34,991 nt of DNA from Candidatus Aquidulcis sp. (lineage in GTDB: Bacteria > Chloroflexota > Anaerolineae > Anaerolineales > UBA4823). Where the stretch lies: contig DYIZ01000020.1 in the NCBI GenBank assembly GCA_020723385.1, forward strand, positions 1 through 34,991, given 5' to 3'. The notes under the pieces were generated by a model that was not told where the DNA came from, did not search any database, and saw nothing but the letters and a program-made list of their open reading frames with translations. Numbering within the stretch: position 1 is the stretch's first letter; every line of letters starts with the position of its first letter. A program made the translations under genes and the position numbers. Positions 3-34,637 of this stretch are shown here, piece after piece.

Positions 3-1109
3 TCTGTCGCCGACTCGATCGAGCGCTGGCTGCCGGAGCACCCCGACGCGACCGCCGCCGTGCTGGTGCCGCGCAACTGGCGCGGTTACGAGCTGTCCGA
101 GGCCCTCAAAAAACGCAAGATCGAGCCGGTGGAGATGCTCGGCAGCACCATCGCCACCCGCATGGCCTCGGGCGCGCTGGCGAACGTGCTGCAATACCTG
201 TCCGACCCGCAGTCGGCCAGCAAGCTCTCGACGGCATATCGGGTGTGGCGGCGCGCCGTGCGCGACGACGACAGCGATCAGGCCGACGAGACCAGGGCCA
301 TCGTCGAGCGGGCGGCGACCCTGATCCGAAAATGCCCGCGCCTCGAAGATTATCTCTGCCCCCGTCTGGGGCGCGACTGGCTGGAAGCGCTGGGCCTGGC
401 CGACGAGAGCGCGGCGGTCTACGATGAGCTGGCCGCCTTCCGGGATTTGGCGCAGCGCTGGCAGGGCGCCACCCTCCTGCCGATTGACCAGGTGGTGCTG
501 ACCCTTTCCCAGGATTTGTTCGCTTCCCCCACCGACCTGGCGATTGCCCACAAGCTGGCGGTCTTGCTGCGCCGGGCTGGCGAGGCCCACCAGGATTGGC
601 GTATGCCCGAAATGACCGAGGAAATTGCCGTCATCGCCCGCAACGAGCGCCGCTTCCTGGGCTTCAGCGAAGACGACAGCGGCTTCGACCCTGACAAATA
701 CAAAGGCCGGGTGGTCATCTCGACCATCCACAAAGCCAAGGGACTGGAGTGGGATCGGGTCTACCTGATGTCGGTCAACAACTACGATTTCCCCTCCGGG
801 ATGGAATACGACCGTTACATCTCGGAGAAATGGTTCGTGCGCGACAGCCTGAACCTGGAAGCCGAAGCGATGGCGCAGCTCGAAGCCGCCTTCTCGACCG
901 ACGCCTACGCGTGGTACGAGGAAGGCCAGCCCACCCGCCAGGCCCGCCAGGATTACGTCGCCGAGCGGGTGCGCCTGTTGTACGTCGGCATCACCCGCGC
1001 CCGCAAAGAATTGATCATCACCTGGAACACCGGCCGCGACGGCTCCCAGCAGCCCGCCCTACCCCTGGTAGCGCTGCAATCGTTCTGGGAGGCTAACCAG
1101 TCTCAATAG
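3..1109 (+). CDS. UvrD/Rep-type superfamily I helicase, C-terminal part (5' end outside window)
   Basis: The frame is open from the left edge and ends with TAG at 1107-1109, so only about 368 C-terminal residues are visible. Two helicase signatures of the UvrD/PcrA/Rep family can be read: motif V as TIHKAKGLEWD at about nt 721-753 and motif VI as LLYVGITRARKEL at about nt 973-1011. The Walker A and B motifs must lie upstream of the window. The family unwinds duplex DNA 3' to 5' using ATP in repair and recombination. The next gene is a PD-(D/E)XK nuclease on the same strand 130 nt away, so a helicase-nuclease partnership of the RecB/AddAB kind is possible but inferred. A GTG at nt 60 lies in frame, but the coding frame clearly continues upstream of it, so it is not the start. 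Confidence 0.9.
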   Translation, partial: SVADSIERWLPEHPDATAAVLVPRNWRGYELSEALKKRKIEPVEMLGSTIATRMASGALANVLQYLSDPQSASKLSTAYRVWRRAVRDDDSDQADETRAIVERAATLIRKCPRLEDYLCPRLGRDWLEALGLADESAAVYDELAAFRDLAQRWQGATLLPIDQVVLTLSQDLFASPTDLAIAHKLAVLLRRAGEAHQDWRMPEMTEEIAVIARNERRFLGFSEDDSGFDPDKYKGRVVISTIHKAKGLEWDRVYLMSVNNYDFPSGMEYDRYISEKWFVRDSLNLEAEAMAQLEAAFSTDAYAWYEEGQPTRQARQDYVAERVRLLYVGITRARKELIITWNTGRDGSQQPALPLVALQSFWEANQSQ

Positions 1110-1129
1110 ACGATAATTTCACGCTCTAA

Positions 1130-1190
1130 GGGGACGAAAGTCCCCGCTCCCGCCGGATGATAATCCGGCGGGAGCAACTTGTGATTTACT
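1130..1190 (+). repeat. Palindromic repeat, family A copy 1 (intergenic)
   Basis: This gap element has two hairpins. The first is GGGGACGAAAGTCCCC at 1130-1145. The second has 12-bp arms (1147-1158 and 1163-1174) around a GATA loop, and is followed by a conserved tail CAACTTGTGATTTACT at 1175-1190. The same order of parts, with the same loop and tail, recurs on the minus strand at 32494-32576. There it lies inside a cytochrome reading frame. The rest of this gap (1191-1239) is a tract with repeated ATTCGT words and no recognisable promoter. Confidence 0.75.
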
Positions 1191-1239
1191 GTATACAATT
1201 CGTGCCATTCGTCCATTCGTGCTATTCGTGTTTGATTTT

Positions 1240-29831: not shown

Positions 29832-31013
29832 TTATTTCTCAGGCGCGCCGGCTCGAATCCAGGCAATGACAGCTTGTAATTCTTCGGGCGTTAACTGGCC
29901 GGGATGCCCGCCTTGGCTCTGGATTTGCACCAGAACGCTGGTATCCGGGTTGTTCGGCGCGATCGCCGGGCCAGTTTTGCCACCTTTCAGCGCATCCGCG
30001 TAGGTTGCCAGCGTCAGCCCACCGACTTTGGTCACGCCATGACAGGCGCCGCACCGATTGCGGAACAAAGCCGTGTATTTCCCATCCCAGGTGTCAGCGC
30101 CTACCGGGCGGTTAGGATCCAGCGTTGGGGTGACGGTGGGCGTGGGGCGCGGCGTGGGGGTGATGGGCACGAAGACTTCGGCGGTTTCGGCGCGCGGGAT
30201 GGTGGTCAGCGCAGTATTCTCGATGGTCAAAAATTGCACCAGCCCGAAACTCAGCACGCCGGTAATGACGAGCGCCACGGGGAAGTAAATGATCTGTCTG
30301 CGGCGCAGCACCTGCGGTGGGATGGGCTGGGGCACGCTCGATTCGATCTCGGCCAACTCAGCCGGATGCTCGTGTTCCATCTCCTCACGCGTCATTTTGC
30401 CGGTGAACATGCTTTTGTTGAGATGTTTGATGTGGACGCTGTAGAAGTGCCACAGGATGATCGCCAGCACTGCCAGGATGGCCTCGCCCCCGTGGGCTGC
30501 TTTGGCCGCCGGGATAGCCTCGCCCGGCAGGAGACGCGTGGTAGAGATGGGGTTCCACATCATAAAGCCGGTGATCGCCATCACGACTGTGCCCCAAACC
30601 AGAGCGAAGTATTCCATCTTCTCGACATAGGAATAGCGCCCATAGTAGGCGCGGTGTTTGCGCAGGCCAACGTAGTAGGCCACATCTTCGAGCAGATGTT
30701 TGAAATCGTCAATCCAGGGCGCCATGCTCAGTTTTACCCGCAGCACGAGCACGCGATACAGCACATCCAGAACATGATAGATGCCGACCGCCATGAGCAC
30801 AATAGCCGCGATATGGTGAATCTGTCGGGTGGACTCGATCCCCCCCAACAGGCGCAAGATGAACAGGCTGATCGGCGAGTCGATGAATTTTTGGATCAAA
30901 CCGGTCACACCCAGAGTGGTGAACGATAGGATCAGCAGGGCGTGTCCGATGCGCTGGAAAATGTCGAAGCGCACGTAGGTTTTTTCCGGCGAGGTAACGG
31001 ATTTTTCAGTCAT
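29832..31013 (-). CDS. Cytochrome b fused to a C-terminal monoheme cytochrome c
   Basis: This is a 393-residue protein. Residues about 15-215 form a formate-dehydrogenase-gamma or b561-like membrane domain with histidine-bearing helices (RIGHALLILSF, QIHHIAAIVLM, WHFYSVHIKHLNKSMFTG). A fifth segment (about 240-260) leads through a Pro/Thr-rich linker (TPTPRPTPTVTPTLDPN) to a cytochrome c domain with CGACH near 317. The distal Met expected in class I cytochromes c is missing: the site reads HPGQLTPEEL. The b domain is a paralogue of the protein encoded at 32598-33341, which lacks the c domain. The GAGGAGG ribosome site and ATG lie in an 8-nt overlap (ATGACTGA) with the nonaheme gene. It likely links quinones to the nonaheme protein. 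Confidence 0.9.
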   Translation of the reverse strand: MTEKSVTSPEKTYVRFDIFQRIGHALLILSFTTLGVTGLIQKFIDSPISLFILRLLGGIESTRQIHHIAAIVLMAVGIYHVLDVLYRVLVLRVKLSMAPWIDDFKHLLEDVAYYVGLRKHRAYYGRYSYVEKMEYFALVWGTVVMAITGFMMWNPISTTRLLPGEAIPAAKAAHGGEAILAVLAIILWHFYSVHIKHLNKSMFTGKMTREEMEHEHPAELAEIESSVPQPIPPQVLRRRQIIYFPVALVITGVLSFGLVQFLTIENTALTTIPRAETAEVFVPITPTPRPTPTVTPTLDPNRPVGADTWDGKYTALFRNRCGACHGVTKVGGLTLATYADALKGGKTGPAIAPNNPDTSVLVQIQSQGGHPGQLTPEELQAVIAWIRAGAPEK

Positions 31014-32598
31014 CGGTCACCTCCTCATCGGATTGAGGGGCTTCTGGCGGTGTGTTTTCACCGGTTGTAGGTGCTTCCTCGGTTTCTGCCGTTTCTTCGC
31101 CGGGTTCGAGAGATTCTGAAGATGTGCTCTCGCCGGTTGTCGGTGACTCAACGGGTTCGGATTCCGCCGTCTCCTCAACGTTCTCAGTGACTTCTGGGGC
31201 AATGGCCTCGCCGGCGGCTGGCGGCTCGACGGGTTTTGCCTCCTCCCCGGTTTCTAGCAACTCCTCGACTGCTGGAGCGGTCTCCATTGTTTCCTCGCTC
31301 GTCACTGGTGGCTGATCGCTGACTGCTGACCGCTGAGCGCTGACTGCTGGCTGCTTCCGAAACCGGTTGATCATCAAGCGCATGAAATCCAACGCCACCA
31401 GCACGGCCATCCCGCCCAGCACACCGGGGATGAAGAATTTGTAGAACAGGTTGACGTAATACACTACGGGGTATTTCTCGGGCGAGGGAATATAGTGTGA
31501 CAGCCAGGCGGTGGGGAAGTCGGCGGTAGCGTCGGGATGGCACACCTGGCAGCGTTTCAATAAGTTTTCTTTGACCTGTAACCCCTTCTGTGGATCGTCG
31601 GGGCGGGTGATGTCGTGGACGCCGTGACAATCGTAGCATACGGGTTTGTTGGTCTCGGCATCGGGCGACTCTTTCTCGAACATGACCACCGTCGTGCCGT
31701 GGAAATCGGAAACATAGGTGCTCAGAACCTGGGTGGAAATGTTATATTTACCCATCCGTTGGGGATCGGTGTGGCACCTGGCGCAAATATTGGGCGACTT
31801 AAGGCGAAAAGCTGCGGTGGTGGGGTCTTCTATGCTGTGAACCCCGTGGCAGTCAATGCAGGTAGGCACGTCGGGGTTGCCTTCTCCAACGAGCGCCTCG
31901 CCGTGGACGCTGGTGAGGTATTTTTCGTAGATGGTGTTGTGACATTGGGCGCAGGTCTGCGGGATCCACTGGCGTGCTTCCGGTAACAACGCATGGGTTA
32001 CAGGATCGGTGAGCTGCTGGACGTTGTGGGCTGTGTGGCAATCGGTGCAGACCGCGGCCTCGCGCTCCCCCCGCGCCTGGGCCGCCTGGTGGACGCTGTC
32101 TTTGACGCTCTCAGCCTCGCCGGCATGGCAGCGGGCGCATACCTGGTTCAATTGGAGAGTCACATCGCGCAAGTCGGCGGCAGAGAAAGCCGGGTGAGGA
32201 AACTCGCCAACGGTGGTATGACATTGAACGCAGGCATAGCCTTTTTGCCCGTGGATGGAACCCGCGTGAGCCAGCGGGTCCACAAACAGGTCGAGGGTAT
32301 CGCCGTTGTCGAGCGTCAGGCTCTGCCCTGGCAGGCCGTGGCATCCCAGGCAGTAGTCATCTCCGATAGACATTGGCGACATGGGGGTGGGAGATGCCGC
32401 CTGCGATTGCGGGGCGGCCGCAGTGGGCATTGCCAGCGCCAGCCCGGCGACCAGCAGCAAAGCGGCCATTACCAACCCGATCAAGAAGTGTCTCAGTAGA
32501 TCACAATTTGCTCCCACCGGATGACGCGGTTGCGAGCAACCGACATCCGGCGGCTTAAGCGTGGACTTTCGTCCACTCAAAGCGAAAAAGTGGGGCAT
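31006..32598 (-). CDS. Nonaheme c-type cytochrome 2, with acidic C-terminal tail
   Basis: This is a 530-residue protein. There are nine CxxCH motifs from CLGCH (C83) to CQVCH, in the same order and with the same GVH-type followers as the paralogue at 33338-34453. A membrane segment near 385-408 follows. Residues 8-35 are read from a family A palindromic element (32494-32576) placed between the start and the signal helix. Residues about 416-430 are read from a heptameric repeat (31311-31352). The last 100 residues form a Glu/Thr/Pro-rich acidic tail with repeated PTTGE words that the paralogue lacks. ATG 32598 has AGGAGG nine bases upstream and shares one base with the preceding stop (TAATG), so this start is well supported despite the odd N-terminus. 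Confidence 0.88.
   Translation of the reverse strand: MPHFFALSGRKSTLKPPDVGCSQPRHPVGANCDLLRHFLIGLVMAALLLVAGLALAMPTAAAPQSQAASPTPMSPMSIGDDYCLGCHGLPGQSLTLDNGDTLDLFVDPLAHAGSIHGQKGYACVQCHTTVGEFPHPAFSAADLRDVTLQLNQVCARCHAGEAESVKDSVHQAAQARGEREAAVCTDCHTAHNVQQLTDPVTHALLPEARQWIPQTCAQCHNTIYEKYLTSVHGEALVGEGNPDVPTCIDCHGVHSIEDPTTAAFRLKSPNICARCHTDPQRMGKYNISTQVLSTYVSDFHGTTVVMFEKESPDAETNKPVCYDCHGVHDITRPDDPQKGLQVKENLLKRCQVCHPDATADFPTAWLSHYIPSPEKYPVVYYVNLFYKFFIPGVLGGMAVLVALDFMRLMINRFRKQPAVSAQRSAVSDQPPVTSEETMETAPAVEELLETGEEAKPVEPPAAGEAIAPEVTENVEETAESEPVESPTTGESTSSESLEPGEETAETEEAPTTGENTPPEAPQSDEEVTDD
31311..31352. repeat. Six heptamers GCTGANC inside the nonaheme cytochrome 2 gene
   Basis: The six 7-nt units are GCTGATC, GCTGACT, GCTGACC, GCTGAGC, GCTGACT and GCTGGCT. 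Because 7 is not a multiple of 3, three units give a seven-residue period, seen as AVSAQRS then AVSDQPP. The same heptamer family lies at 2301-2328 before recJ. Confidence 0.75.
32494..32576 (-). repeat. Palindromic repeat, family A copy 2 (inside a coding region)
   Basis: Read on the minus strand it contains GTGGACGAAAGTCCAC, a stem CCGCCGGATG with CATCCGGTGG that carries an inner CGGTTG-CAACCG hairpin, and the tail GGGAGCAAATTGTGATCTACTG in pieces matching copy 1 at 1130-1190. The stem is longer than in copy 1. It has no stop in the reading frame used by the nonaheme cytochrome 2. Confidence 0.75.
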
Positions 32599-33341
32599 TA
32601 CTGGCTGCCTCCTGTGGGGGCGTCGCCGGATTTTTCACCGGTCAGGCGCTCGTGTTCTTTGGCGTGATAGGCGCGCATCTCGTTCTCGCTCAACCGCCCG
32701 GTGAAGATGCTGAGATTCAACCGCTCGATGTGAACGTGGTAGAAGTGAAAGATCACCACGAACACCACGCCAACGATAGCTTCTGTACTGTGGGCCAGCT
32801 TGGCCGCCGGGATGATGCTGCCCGGCAGGAAGCGGGTGAAGAACTCCGGGAACCAGATGATCAGCCCGCTGACGAGCATGATGCCGATATTGAAGACGAT
32901 GAACCAATAGGTAAATTTCTGCTCGAAGTTGAACTTGCCAAAGGCTGGCTTGGTTTTGCGCAGGAAGAGCAGGTAGAGTACCATCTGCCCGGCGTCGCGC
33001 ACATCCTGCCCGGTGGGGAGCATATCCCCCGGCAGCCTGCGCCGCGACAGCAGCCATAAAGCTCTGCCGACGTGGAAGGCCACTTCGAGTATGAGCACGA
33101 TGGCGGCGAGGTAGTGGAACCCTTGCACCATCCCTAGCCGCTCAGGCGTGGCGAGTATTTGTTGGCTCCACTCGGCGGCGCGGTATTTTTGGGGCAGCCC
33201 GGTCAACACCAGCACCGCCACGCTCAGGAACAGAATCAGGTGTTCCCAGCGCTGCCCGGCAGTGAAGCGCTTGAAGAGGCGTTCGATATGGATACCCTGG
33301 GCAGCAGATGATGCGGCTTTTTTCTGGTTTTTGGCGCTCAT
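32598..33341 (-). CDS. Cytochrome b (formate dehydrogenase gamma / b561-like) subunit
   Basis: This is a 247-residue protein with four to five membrane segments. Histidine-bearing helices include RWEHLILFLSVAVL, GFHYLAAIVLILEVAFHVGR and VIFHFYHVHIERLNLSIFTG. These are typical of di-haem quinone-linked cytochromes b. It is the partner-type paralogue of the b domain at 29832-31013. ATG 33341 has GGAGGA upstream and overlaps the preceding nonaheme gene stop by 4 nt (ATGA); the longer open frame upstream is out-of-frame shadow of that gene. It should move electrons between menaquinone and the nonaheme cytochrome encoded just before it; the direction is unknown. Confidence 0.92.
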   Translation of the reverse strand: MSAKNQKKAASSAAQGIHIERLFKRFTAGQRWEHLILFLSVAVLVLTGLPQKYRAAEWSQQILATPERLGMVQGFHYLAAIVLILEVAFHVGRALWLLSRRRLPGDMLPTGQDVRDAGQMVLYLLFLRKTKPAFGKFNFEQKFTYWFIVFNIGIMLVSGLIIWFPEFFTRFLPGSIIPAAKLAHSTEAIVGVVFVVIFHFYHVHIERLNLSIFTGRLSENEMRAYHAKEHERLTGEKSGDAPTGGSQ

Positions 33342-34453
33342 GGCAGGTTCCTCCGGATGCGGTCCACAGTAGCCCGGATGATTTGCAAAACCACATACAG
33401 GATGGACGCCCACAGCACCACCGGCGCGAAGGAGGCGTAAAACGCCTGGGTATAGAAAACGAACGGGGTGCGCTTCAGGCTGACTTCGTTGTGGCCTGTC
33501 CAGGCTGCTGTCCAGTTCGACCCGGCGGCGGGGTGGCATGTGTGGCAGGTCGCCAGCAGGTTTGCCGGGTTGACGTGCGAGGCCGGGTCGCTGGTTTTGC
33601 GGATGTCGTGGACGCCGTGGCAATCGGTGCAGACCGCGCTGTCGTGCCAGATCGTTGGCCAGCGGGATTTGTAAACGGCCACGTCCACGCCATGCCATGA
33701 GAGCTGGTAGATGTCATAGACGTTGGCCGGCAAGCCGTATTTGTCCATCAATTGCTGGTCGGCGTGGCAGCCGGCGCACAGCTCCGGGGTTTGCACGCGG
33801 AATTGGGCTGTGCGCGGATCCTGAATATTGTGGACGCCGTGGCAATCGGTGCAAACCGGCACGTCGGGGTTGTCGTCGCCGAGCAATGCCGCGCCGTGAA
33901 CGCTCTCTTTGTACGCTTCGACGATGGCGTTGTGACACTGCCCACAGGTTTCGGAGATGTGGGCGCGCGGCTCGTTGGGCGGGCGAACATCGTGCGCCCC
34001 GTGGCAGTCGGTACACACGGGAGCGTTCAGGTTGCCCTCGCCAGCCACCGTTGCGTGAACGCTGTCGAGCGTTTTCTCGTAATTGCCGGGGTGACATTTC
34101 TGGCAGGCCAGGTACAAATCCCGGCTAAATTCGCGCCGGGTTTGGGCCGCGACCTCCGGGTGTGGGTAGGTGGTGATGCCGGTGTGACAGGCTTCGCATT
34201 CGATGCCGGCATGGCTGTGAATGGACTGCGCCAGTGTGTCAGGTGAAAGATACAGCGGCAAAGTCTCACCGCTCGGCAATGTGCGGGATAACTGTGGATC
34301 ATTCCCGTGGCAAGACAGGCAGTATTTCTCGGTCTCCTGCCTGGATACAGTGTCGGCGCGGGCGGGCGCCGCTGGGGAGAGGCAAATCAGCAGAGTGATC
34401 GCGCCCCCCAGGATCAACGCCGGCCAAAGCCAACTGATATCTGGCTTAGTCAT
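33338..34453 (-). CDS. Nonaheme c-type cytochrome 1, membrane anchored
   Basis: This is a 371-residue protein. A signal peptide (about 1-33, ending ARA) is followed by nine CxxCH motifs: CLSCH (C45), CEACH, CQKCH, CTDCH, CGQCH, CTDCH, CAGCH, CTDCH, CHTCH. Repeated SVHG and CHGVH words supply extra histidine ligands. A C-terminal membrane segment (about 335-358) and a short basic tail end the protein. The motif order matches nonaheme cytochrome 2, so the two cytochrome c/b pairs arose by duplication. The start overlaps the small membrane protein gene by 8 nt (ATGACTAA). It resembles NrfB/NapC-type and multihaem 'doubled CXXCH' proteins in general, without a close named match I can claim. Confidence 0.9.
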   Translation of the reverse strand: MTKPDISWLWPALILGGAITLLICLSPAAPARADTVSRQETEKYCLSCHGNDPQLSRTLPSGETLPLYLSPDTLAQSIHSHAGIECEACHTGITTYPHPEVAAQTRREFSRDLYLACQKCHPGNYEKTLDSVHATVAGEGNLNAPVCTDCHGAHDVRPPNEPRAHISETCGQCHNAIVEAYKESVHGAALLGDDNPDVPVCTDCHGVHNIQDPRTAQFRVQTPELCAGCHADQQLMDKYGLPANVYDIYQLSWHGVDVAVYKSRWPTIWHDSAVCTDCHGVHDIRKTSDPASHVNPANLLATCHTCHPAAGSNWTAAWTGHNEVSLKRTPFVFYTQAFYASFAPVVLWASILYVVLQIIRATVDRIRRNLP

Positions 34454-34637
34454 GGGTCAACCCTCCTTCCCCCGGAGTATGGTGATTCTCAGCGCCTGCT
34501 GTCTCTTCGGGCGTTTTTGCCACAAGCCCCAGCCGGCGCAATAGATAAGAAATGCCAAATAAAACCAACAGGGGGACGAGACACCTTGCGATAAACAACA
34601 AGGTGACGATGATGGGATTGGTGCTGATGTCATCCAT
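34446..34637 (-). CDS. Small single-TM protein, first gene of the nonaheme operon
   Basis: This is a 63-residue protein. A hydrophobic segment (about 10-32) is followed by a short basic patch (LLRRLGL) and a hydrophilic His/Glu-rich tail (ENHHTPGEGG). GGAGGA lies eight bases before ATG 34637; two in-frame ATGs further upstream lack a ribosome site. It overlaps nonaheme gene 1 by 8 nt and is thus translated together with it. It may be a small accessory subunit of the cytochrome complex; no family was recognised. Confidence 0.65.
   Translation of the reverse strand: MDDISTNPIIVTLLFIARCLVPLLVLFGISYLLRRLGLVAKTPEETAGAENHHTPGEGGLTHD

Follow-up and report, generated by a model that had tools for sequence, protein, structure and literature searches.

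A MITE-like palindromic element that is probably read through as an N-terminal extension of a nine-haem cytochrome in a Chloroflexota genome

Introduction

Several families of short mobile repeats have been found inside bacterial reading frames. Enterobacterial repeats of the ERIC type (RU-1, RU-2, and RU-3) are MITE-like, measure 103-168 bp, and contain open frames that are fused to genes. Rickettsia palindromic elements (RPE) are mobile palindromes of approximately 100-150 bp, which occur in frame in unrelated genes and encode a conserved peptide (PMC10969869). QMITEs of Coxiella, which are MITEs bearing TIRs, contribute extra residues to genes as annotated, in some cases in frame and in the middle of an ORF (PMC5896051). 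GTAG- and CGTC-tagged REPs are short palindromes, some of which are intragenic and some of which lie at the NH2 terminus of an ORF (PMC3733652).

A preliminary description of a Chloroflexota contig had likened a palindromic element at the N-terminus of a multihaem cytochrome to RPE. This likeness was found to be apt: two further copies of the element also lay in frame within genes, and both were read in the element frame used in the cytochrome.

Results

Genomic Setting of the Cytochrome Gene

The window, i.e., the whole stretch of DNA that was analyzed, covered positions 1-34,991 of contig 92, which is 56,987 bp long. The contig belongs to an Anaerolineales draft genome of 6.43 Mb (239 contigs, 95.6% complete). 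The cytochrome gene encoded 530 amino acids with matches to cytochrome c7/c3, and a count of nine CXXCH motifs agreed with its earlier designation as a nonaheme protein. Genes for a b561-type membrane cytochrome and for another multihaem cytochrome were located 5' of it.

31006..32598, reverse strand: exported multihaem cytochrome c with nine CXXCH motifs, with the element at its N-terminus
32598..33341, reverse strand: upstream b561-type membrane cytochrome, with a C-terminal GSQ*-ATG arrangement common to relatives
32608..32613, reverse strand: Shine-Dalgarno (SD) sequence AGGAGG, conserved in element-free orthologues
32596..32598, reverse strand: ATG start codon, which overlaps with the cytochrome b stop codon TAA as TAATG

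The start codon proposed previously was upheld by the upstream AGGAGG, the TAATG overlap with the cytochrome b stop codon, and the open frame.

Anatomy of the Window Copies

32494..32584, reverse strand: MITE copy with certain family homology (CGCTTTGAG...CTACTG), encoding cytochrome residues 6-35
32585..32603, reverse strand: putative left end CAGTAATGCCCCACTTTTT, resembling the left terminal repeat CAGTRGAT..., in which CAGTAATG also belongs to the conserved host start region
32494..32513, reverse strand: right terminal inverted repeat GAGCAAATTGTGATCTACTG
32489..32493, reverse strand: AGACA beside the right end, fitting four of the five letters of the target consensus AGNCT
32561..32576, reverse strand: hairpin GTGGACGAAAGTCCAC
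32514..32553, reverse strand: hairpin CCGCCGGATG...CATCCGGTGG, with CGGTTGCTCGCAACCG nested at 32527-32542

An 83-bp element spanning residues 8-35 had originally been described. An element was indeed present, but the interval 32494-32576 was incomplete, as the family motif CGCTC-N-AAG continued upstream as CGCTTTGAG (32576-32584). Nor is the N-terminal MPHFFAL, previously regarded as host sequence, clearly of host origin: residues 6-7 were derived from the element, and CAGTAATG in the start region is ancestral. By family homology, the element certainly accounts for residues 6-35 of the predicted protein and possibly for residues 2-35.

While the right end of the copy was exact (...TTGTGATCTACTG followed by AGACA, i.e., CTACTG/AGACA), the left target duplicate was missing, the left terminal repeat was poor, and a clean insertion event was not visible. 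The 19 bases CAGTAATGCCCCACTTTTT weakly resembled a worn left terminal repeat, with 1.7-6% of random 5' parts scoring equally. In addition, CAGTAATG was recognized as ancestral host sequence, since element-free relatives carried GGAGGAAGCCAGTAATG at this position. The left boundary of the copy is thus bracketed, on sequence grounds, between 32584 and 32603. A deletion between the matching CAGTA of the host and CAGTA of the terminal repeat may have removed the first host codons together with the left target duplicate, which would fit both the repeat-like left end and the ancestral CAGTAATG.

A sibling copy near the start of the window had been reported as intergenic, at 1130-1190, and as sharing the same hairpin.

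1104..1191, forward strand: sibling element without the inner hairpin, whose CAATAG end closes the UvrD_C gene (60-1109) with a stop codon at 1107-1109

This copy is real and spans 1104-1191, but it lacks the inner CGGTTGC...GCAACCG hairpin and is not purely intergenic, since the preceding UvrD-type gene ends in a stop codon contributed by the left end of the copy.

The Element Family

The repetitive nature of the element, which had been proposed from two copies, was substantiated by a BLAST search of the genome with a 101-bp query. At E<0.01, this search returned 15 matches besides the query, with identities of 82-89% over 72-86 bp among the best. With ten copies as the basis of a covariance model, approximately 45 distinct places were recovered in the same genome (E<0.01). 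Full-length copies measured 88-127 bp, and often 109 bp. Many copies carried inverted repeats CAGTRGATCACA / CAGTRGATGAAAA at both ends, with a terminal repeat consensus beginning CAGTRGAT.... Placed in register, the copies were composed, from left to right, of CAGTRGATCACA or CAGTRGATGAAAAT as the left end, CGCTC-N-AAG, a hairpin of the GGACGAAAGTCC type, a further hairpin CCGCCGGAT...ATCCGGCGG, the letters GAGCAA, and finally the right terminal inverted repeat ...ATCYACTG.

Both flanks could be scored in 16 copies, and in nine of these the 5-bp flanks were identical (AGTAT, AATTT, ATACT, AGACT, ATAAT, AGTCT twice, AGCCT, and AGGTT). Random re-pairing of flanks gave a mean of 1.2 identical pairs and never reached nine in 20,000 trials. 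The first and fifth bases of the duplications were nearly always A and T, respectively, with a target consensus near AGNCT. The combination of terminal inverted repeats and target-site duplications argues that the element is MITE-like and more than a palindrome. Short, multi-copy, and without a transposase gene, it is best classified, from these sequence features, as a non-autonomous MITE-like transposable element of approximately 90-130 bp. No Rfam family matched positions 30900-34600 above the gathering score.

Most copies were intergenic and without a common type of neighboring gene; three of the approximately 45 were located inside genes. Neither BLAST nor the covariance model detected a copy of the main family in 60 MAGs of the same family and order (G001-G060), and the window copy, used as a BLAST query, had no match in the other 399 of 400 genomes sampled from the order. 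For a second subfamily, the sole match elsewhere in the order was 20 bp long. This distribution indicates that the main family is private to one genome among those sampled. A search of the genome for pairs of terminal repeats and for DDE_Tnp_1 genes revealed no end pair around a transposase, and four PF01609 places were without element-type ends. An autonomous partner may be missing from the MAG.

In copies L095, L105, L107, L112, and L114, a CGGTTGC...GCAACCG hairpin was nested in the loop of either main hairpin, giving the impression of palindromes inserted within other palindromes. A different core, with TTCGACTRCGCTCA repeats, was observed between the same CAGTAGATGAAAATTT ends at L179:1026-1146 (G000:C140) and L183:1837-1957 (G000:C98), and the C140 copy of this type was flanked by AGGTT target duplicates. 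Several cores may be mobilized by one transposase. At G000:C43:4597-4837 (L139), two copies were present in direct orientation, approximately 60 bp apart. A 15-bp match in a MurA-like reading frame (C98:53405) was dismissed as chance.

Comparison With Element-Free Orthologues

Orthologues of the cytochrome in 12 other genomes contained neither the repeat nor a homologous N-terminal stretch. In orthologues located after the same cytb gene, GGAGGAAGCCAGTAATG was followed directly by a short n-region and the signal helix, as exemplified by MQRRKAVLWFLIGN in G031. The n-regions of the orthologues comprised 3-7 residues (n=12; G009 = 21), as compared with 36 in the window cytochrome, and the G009 case suggests that the length of the n-region is loosely constrained. 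The AGGAGG...CAGTAATG start was shared by the element-free orthologues. The occurrence of WFLIGNIILALVALAV in G031 further indicated that the signal helix of the window cytochrome is the old host helix. Arg36 and His37 precede this helix (FLIGLVMAALLLVAGLALA), a net charge of +3 was retained in the n-region, and an AXA site that would fit normal cleavage lies at approximately residue 60.

A precise empty site was not found among the genomes compared, in which the closest orthologue showed approximately 67% identity. A contig scan with the cytochrome as query gave a distant Anaerolineales relative as its sole match and no closer empty site.

Other Copies Inside Reading Frames

An in-frame copy at G000:C71:8723-8822 (L120, reverse strand) lay close to the C-terminal end of a protein with approximately 1,250 amino acids. 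Four homologues lacked an insert of approximately 48 residues containing SGRKSTPEPPDAGCAQPRRPAGTNG, and the sequence on both sides of it was conserved. Judged by this alignment, C71 illustrates coding insertion more cleanly than does the window copy. The second copy, at G000:C56:1878-1986 (L121, reverse strand), encoded SGRSGAEQPASTSQPPDCHPAEANTNLL in frame in a fused lactate-utilization-type protein, in the variable linker from the LutB-like part to the C-terminal LUD domain.

The element frame was identical in the three unrelated genes of the window, C71, and C56. A full-length element of 109 bp plus its 5-bp duplication adds 114 bp, i.e., 38 codons, a multiple of three. This same-frame reading is suggestive of a coding strategy, although other frames of the subfamily were also often open, so that agreement among three cases is not proof. 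Differences between copies were not enriched at third codon positions and thus gave no sign of protein-level selection on the peptide; selection on the peptide was therefore not retained as an explanation. Three other apparent N-terminal copies in long ORFs were not accepted as coding, since each had a better start downstream of the element: C63 an ATG before a RecA-like domain, C98:21328 an ATG directly before a hydrophobic signal-like stretch, and C117 an ATG with SD.

Translation Through the Element

The reading frame was open through the whole element into the cytochrome, with SGRKSTLKPPDVGCSQPRHPVGANCDLL as the element-frame peptide of the window copy and STLKPPDVGCSQPR as an example of an element-encoded peptide within residues 11-35. 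Translation across the element has good support from the sequence, but is not proven. The element might instead be a non-coding 5' leader, with translation starting at CTG35, at TTG codons, or at an ATG within the helix of the signal. Many repeat extensions at the N-termini of annotated ORFs were indeed interpreted as leader sequence in a survey of REPs, which also noted that N-termini decorated with RPE-1 are expressed in R. conorii (PMC3733652), and several non-ATG codons and one ATG were available in frame 3' of the window element. None of these downstream candidates (CTG, TTG, or Met within the signal helix) had an SD sequence, however, and a start there would deprive the signal of most of its charged n-region. 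Moreover, element-free orthologues use the same SD sequence and ATG as those located 5' of the element, which makes a start downstream of the element, the objection raised in the preliminary description itself, unlikely.

Discussion

The results as a whole are best explained, with good though not complete confidence, by insertion of a MITE-like element behind the start codon and its read-through as a tolerated extension of the n-region. The originally suggested in-frame jump between start codon and signal helix is supported by orthologues that lack the repeat and by the conserved start signals. According to this proposal, the element inserted immediately 3' of the cytochrome start codon, where the stop-free frame of its subfamily and the net gain of 114 bp (38 codons) would have made the insertion readable straight through. 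The ribosome would start at the ancestral SD sequence and ATG, read approximately 30-34 element residues, and continue into the original RHFLIGLVMAALLL signal helix, so that the added stretch would extend the n-region, the positively charged part of the signal peptide. A trans-acting enzyme presumably carried out the transposition, and the left target duplicate may have been lost afterwards in a small rearrangement.

In Sec export, the signal n-region normally remains cytoplasmic and is discarded with the signal peptide. Because export removes this region, the insertion should not alter the mature nine-haem protein and would be tolerated for this reason. The element is therefore likely a tolerated passenger in the cytochrome, a proposal presupposing that the element is translated in the organism, that the extended signal is cleaved, and that the insertion is neutral.

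Alternatively, the element may have been put to use, either by hairpins that tune translation of the cytochrome or RNA stability or by a longer n-region that alters the export route. The window region, folded as RNA, is very stable (-52.3 kcal/mol, z -4.2), and its hairpins start approximately 23 nt 3' of the ATG. However, all copies fold in this way because they are palindromic, a selection signal was not detected, and the intergenic location of most copies, without a common gene type, also speaks against such a role, which is very unlikely. A repeat-mediated false join in the 239-contig MAG could account for the missing left target duplicate, as MAG assemblies fail at repeats. Such a misassembly is extremely unlikely in view of the flanks (the cytb stop codon and ATG on one side, signal helix and cytochrome on the other), which are arranged and overlap as they do in several relatives.

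Beyond the cytochrome, insertion followed by read-through can tentatively be extended to a coding selfish element in Chloroflexota, i.e., a frame-neutral MITE subfamily (114 bp, stop-free) that, like RPEs, spreads into permissive gene sites, such as a signal n-region, an inter-domain linker, and a surface loop; this extension is possible rather than probable. Being confined to a single species, such an element would have been caught at an early stage. Even without this extension, the locus would represent a recent, lineage-private case of mobile DNA turned protein outside the Proteobacteria, involving three independent proteins in the same frame. The cytochrome suggests why such insertions survive: because it is discarded on export, a signal n-region would offer a free landing zone.

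In comparison with known systems, the family resembles RPEs in its in-frame insertion in several unrelated protein genes (three in this genome). It differs from them in its unrelated phylum, in the low share of copies in genes (3 of approximately 45), and in its clear target duplications. The likeness is one of kind only. In contrast to RU-1, RU-2, and RU-3, which have other ends and in which the repeat is part of the predicted signal sequence itself, the window element extends the n-region before a retained host helix. Coxiella QMITEs differ from it in sequence, host, and ends. GTAG- and CGTC-tagged REPs are palindromes of 20-40 bp with an unpaired tag at one end, whereas the family described here has inverted repeats at both ends, 5-bp duplications, and a length of approximately 90-127 bp. 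The element is, in this comparison, an RPE/ERIC-like coding MITE, of a kind already known, that is lineage-private and occurs in a new phylum setting.
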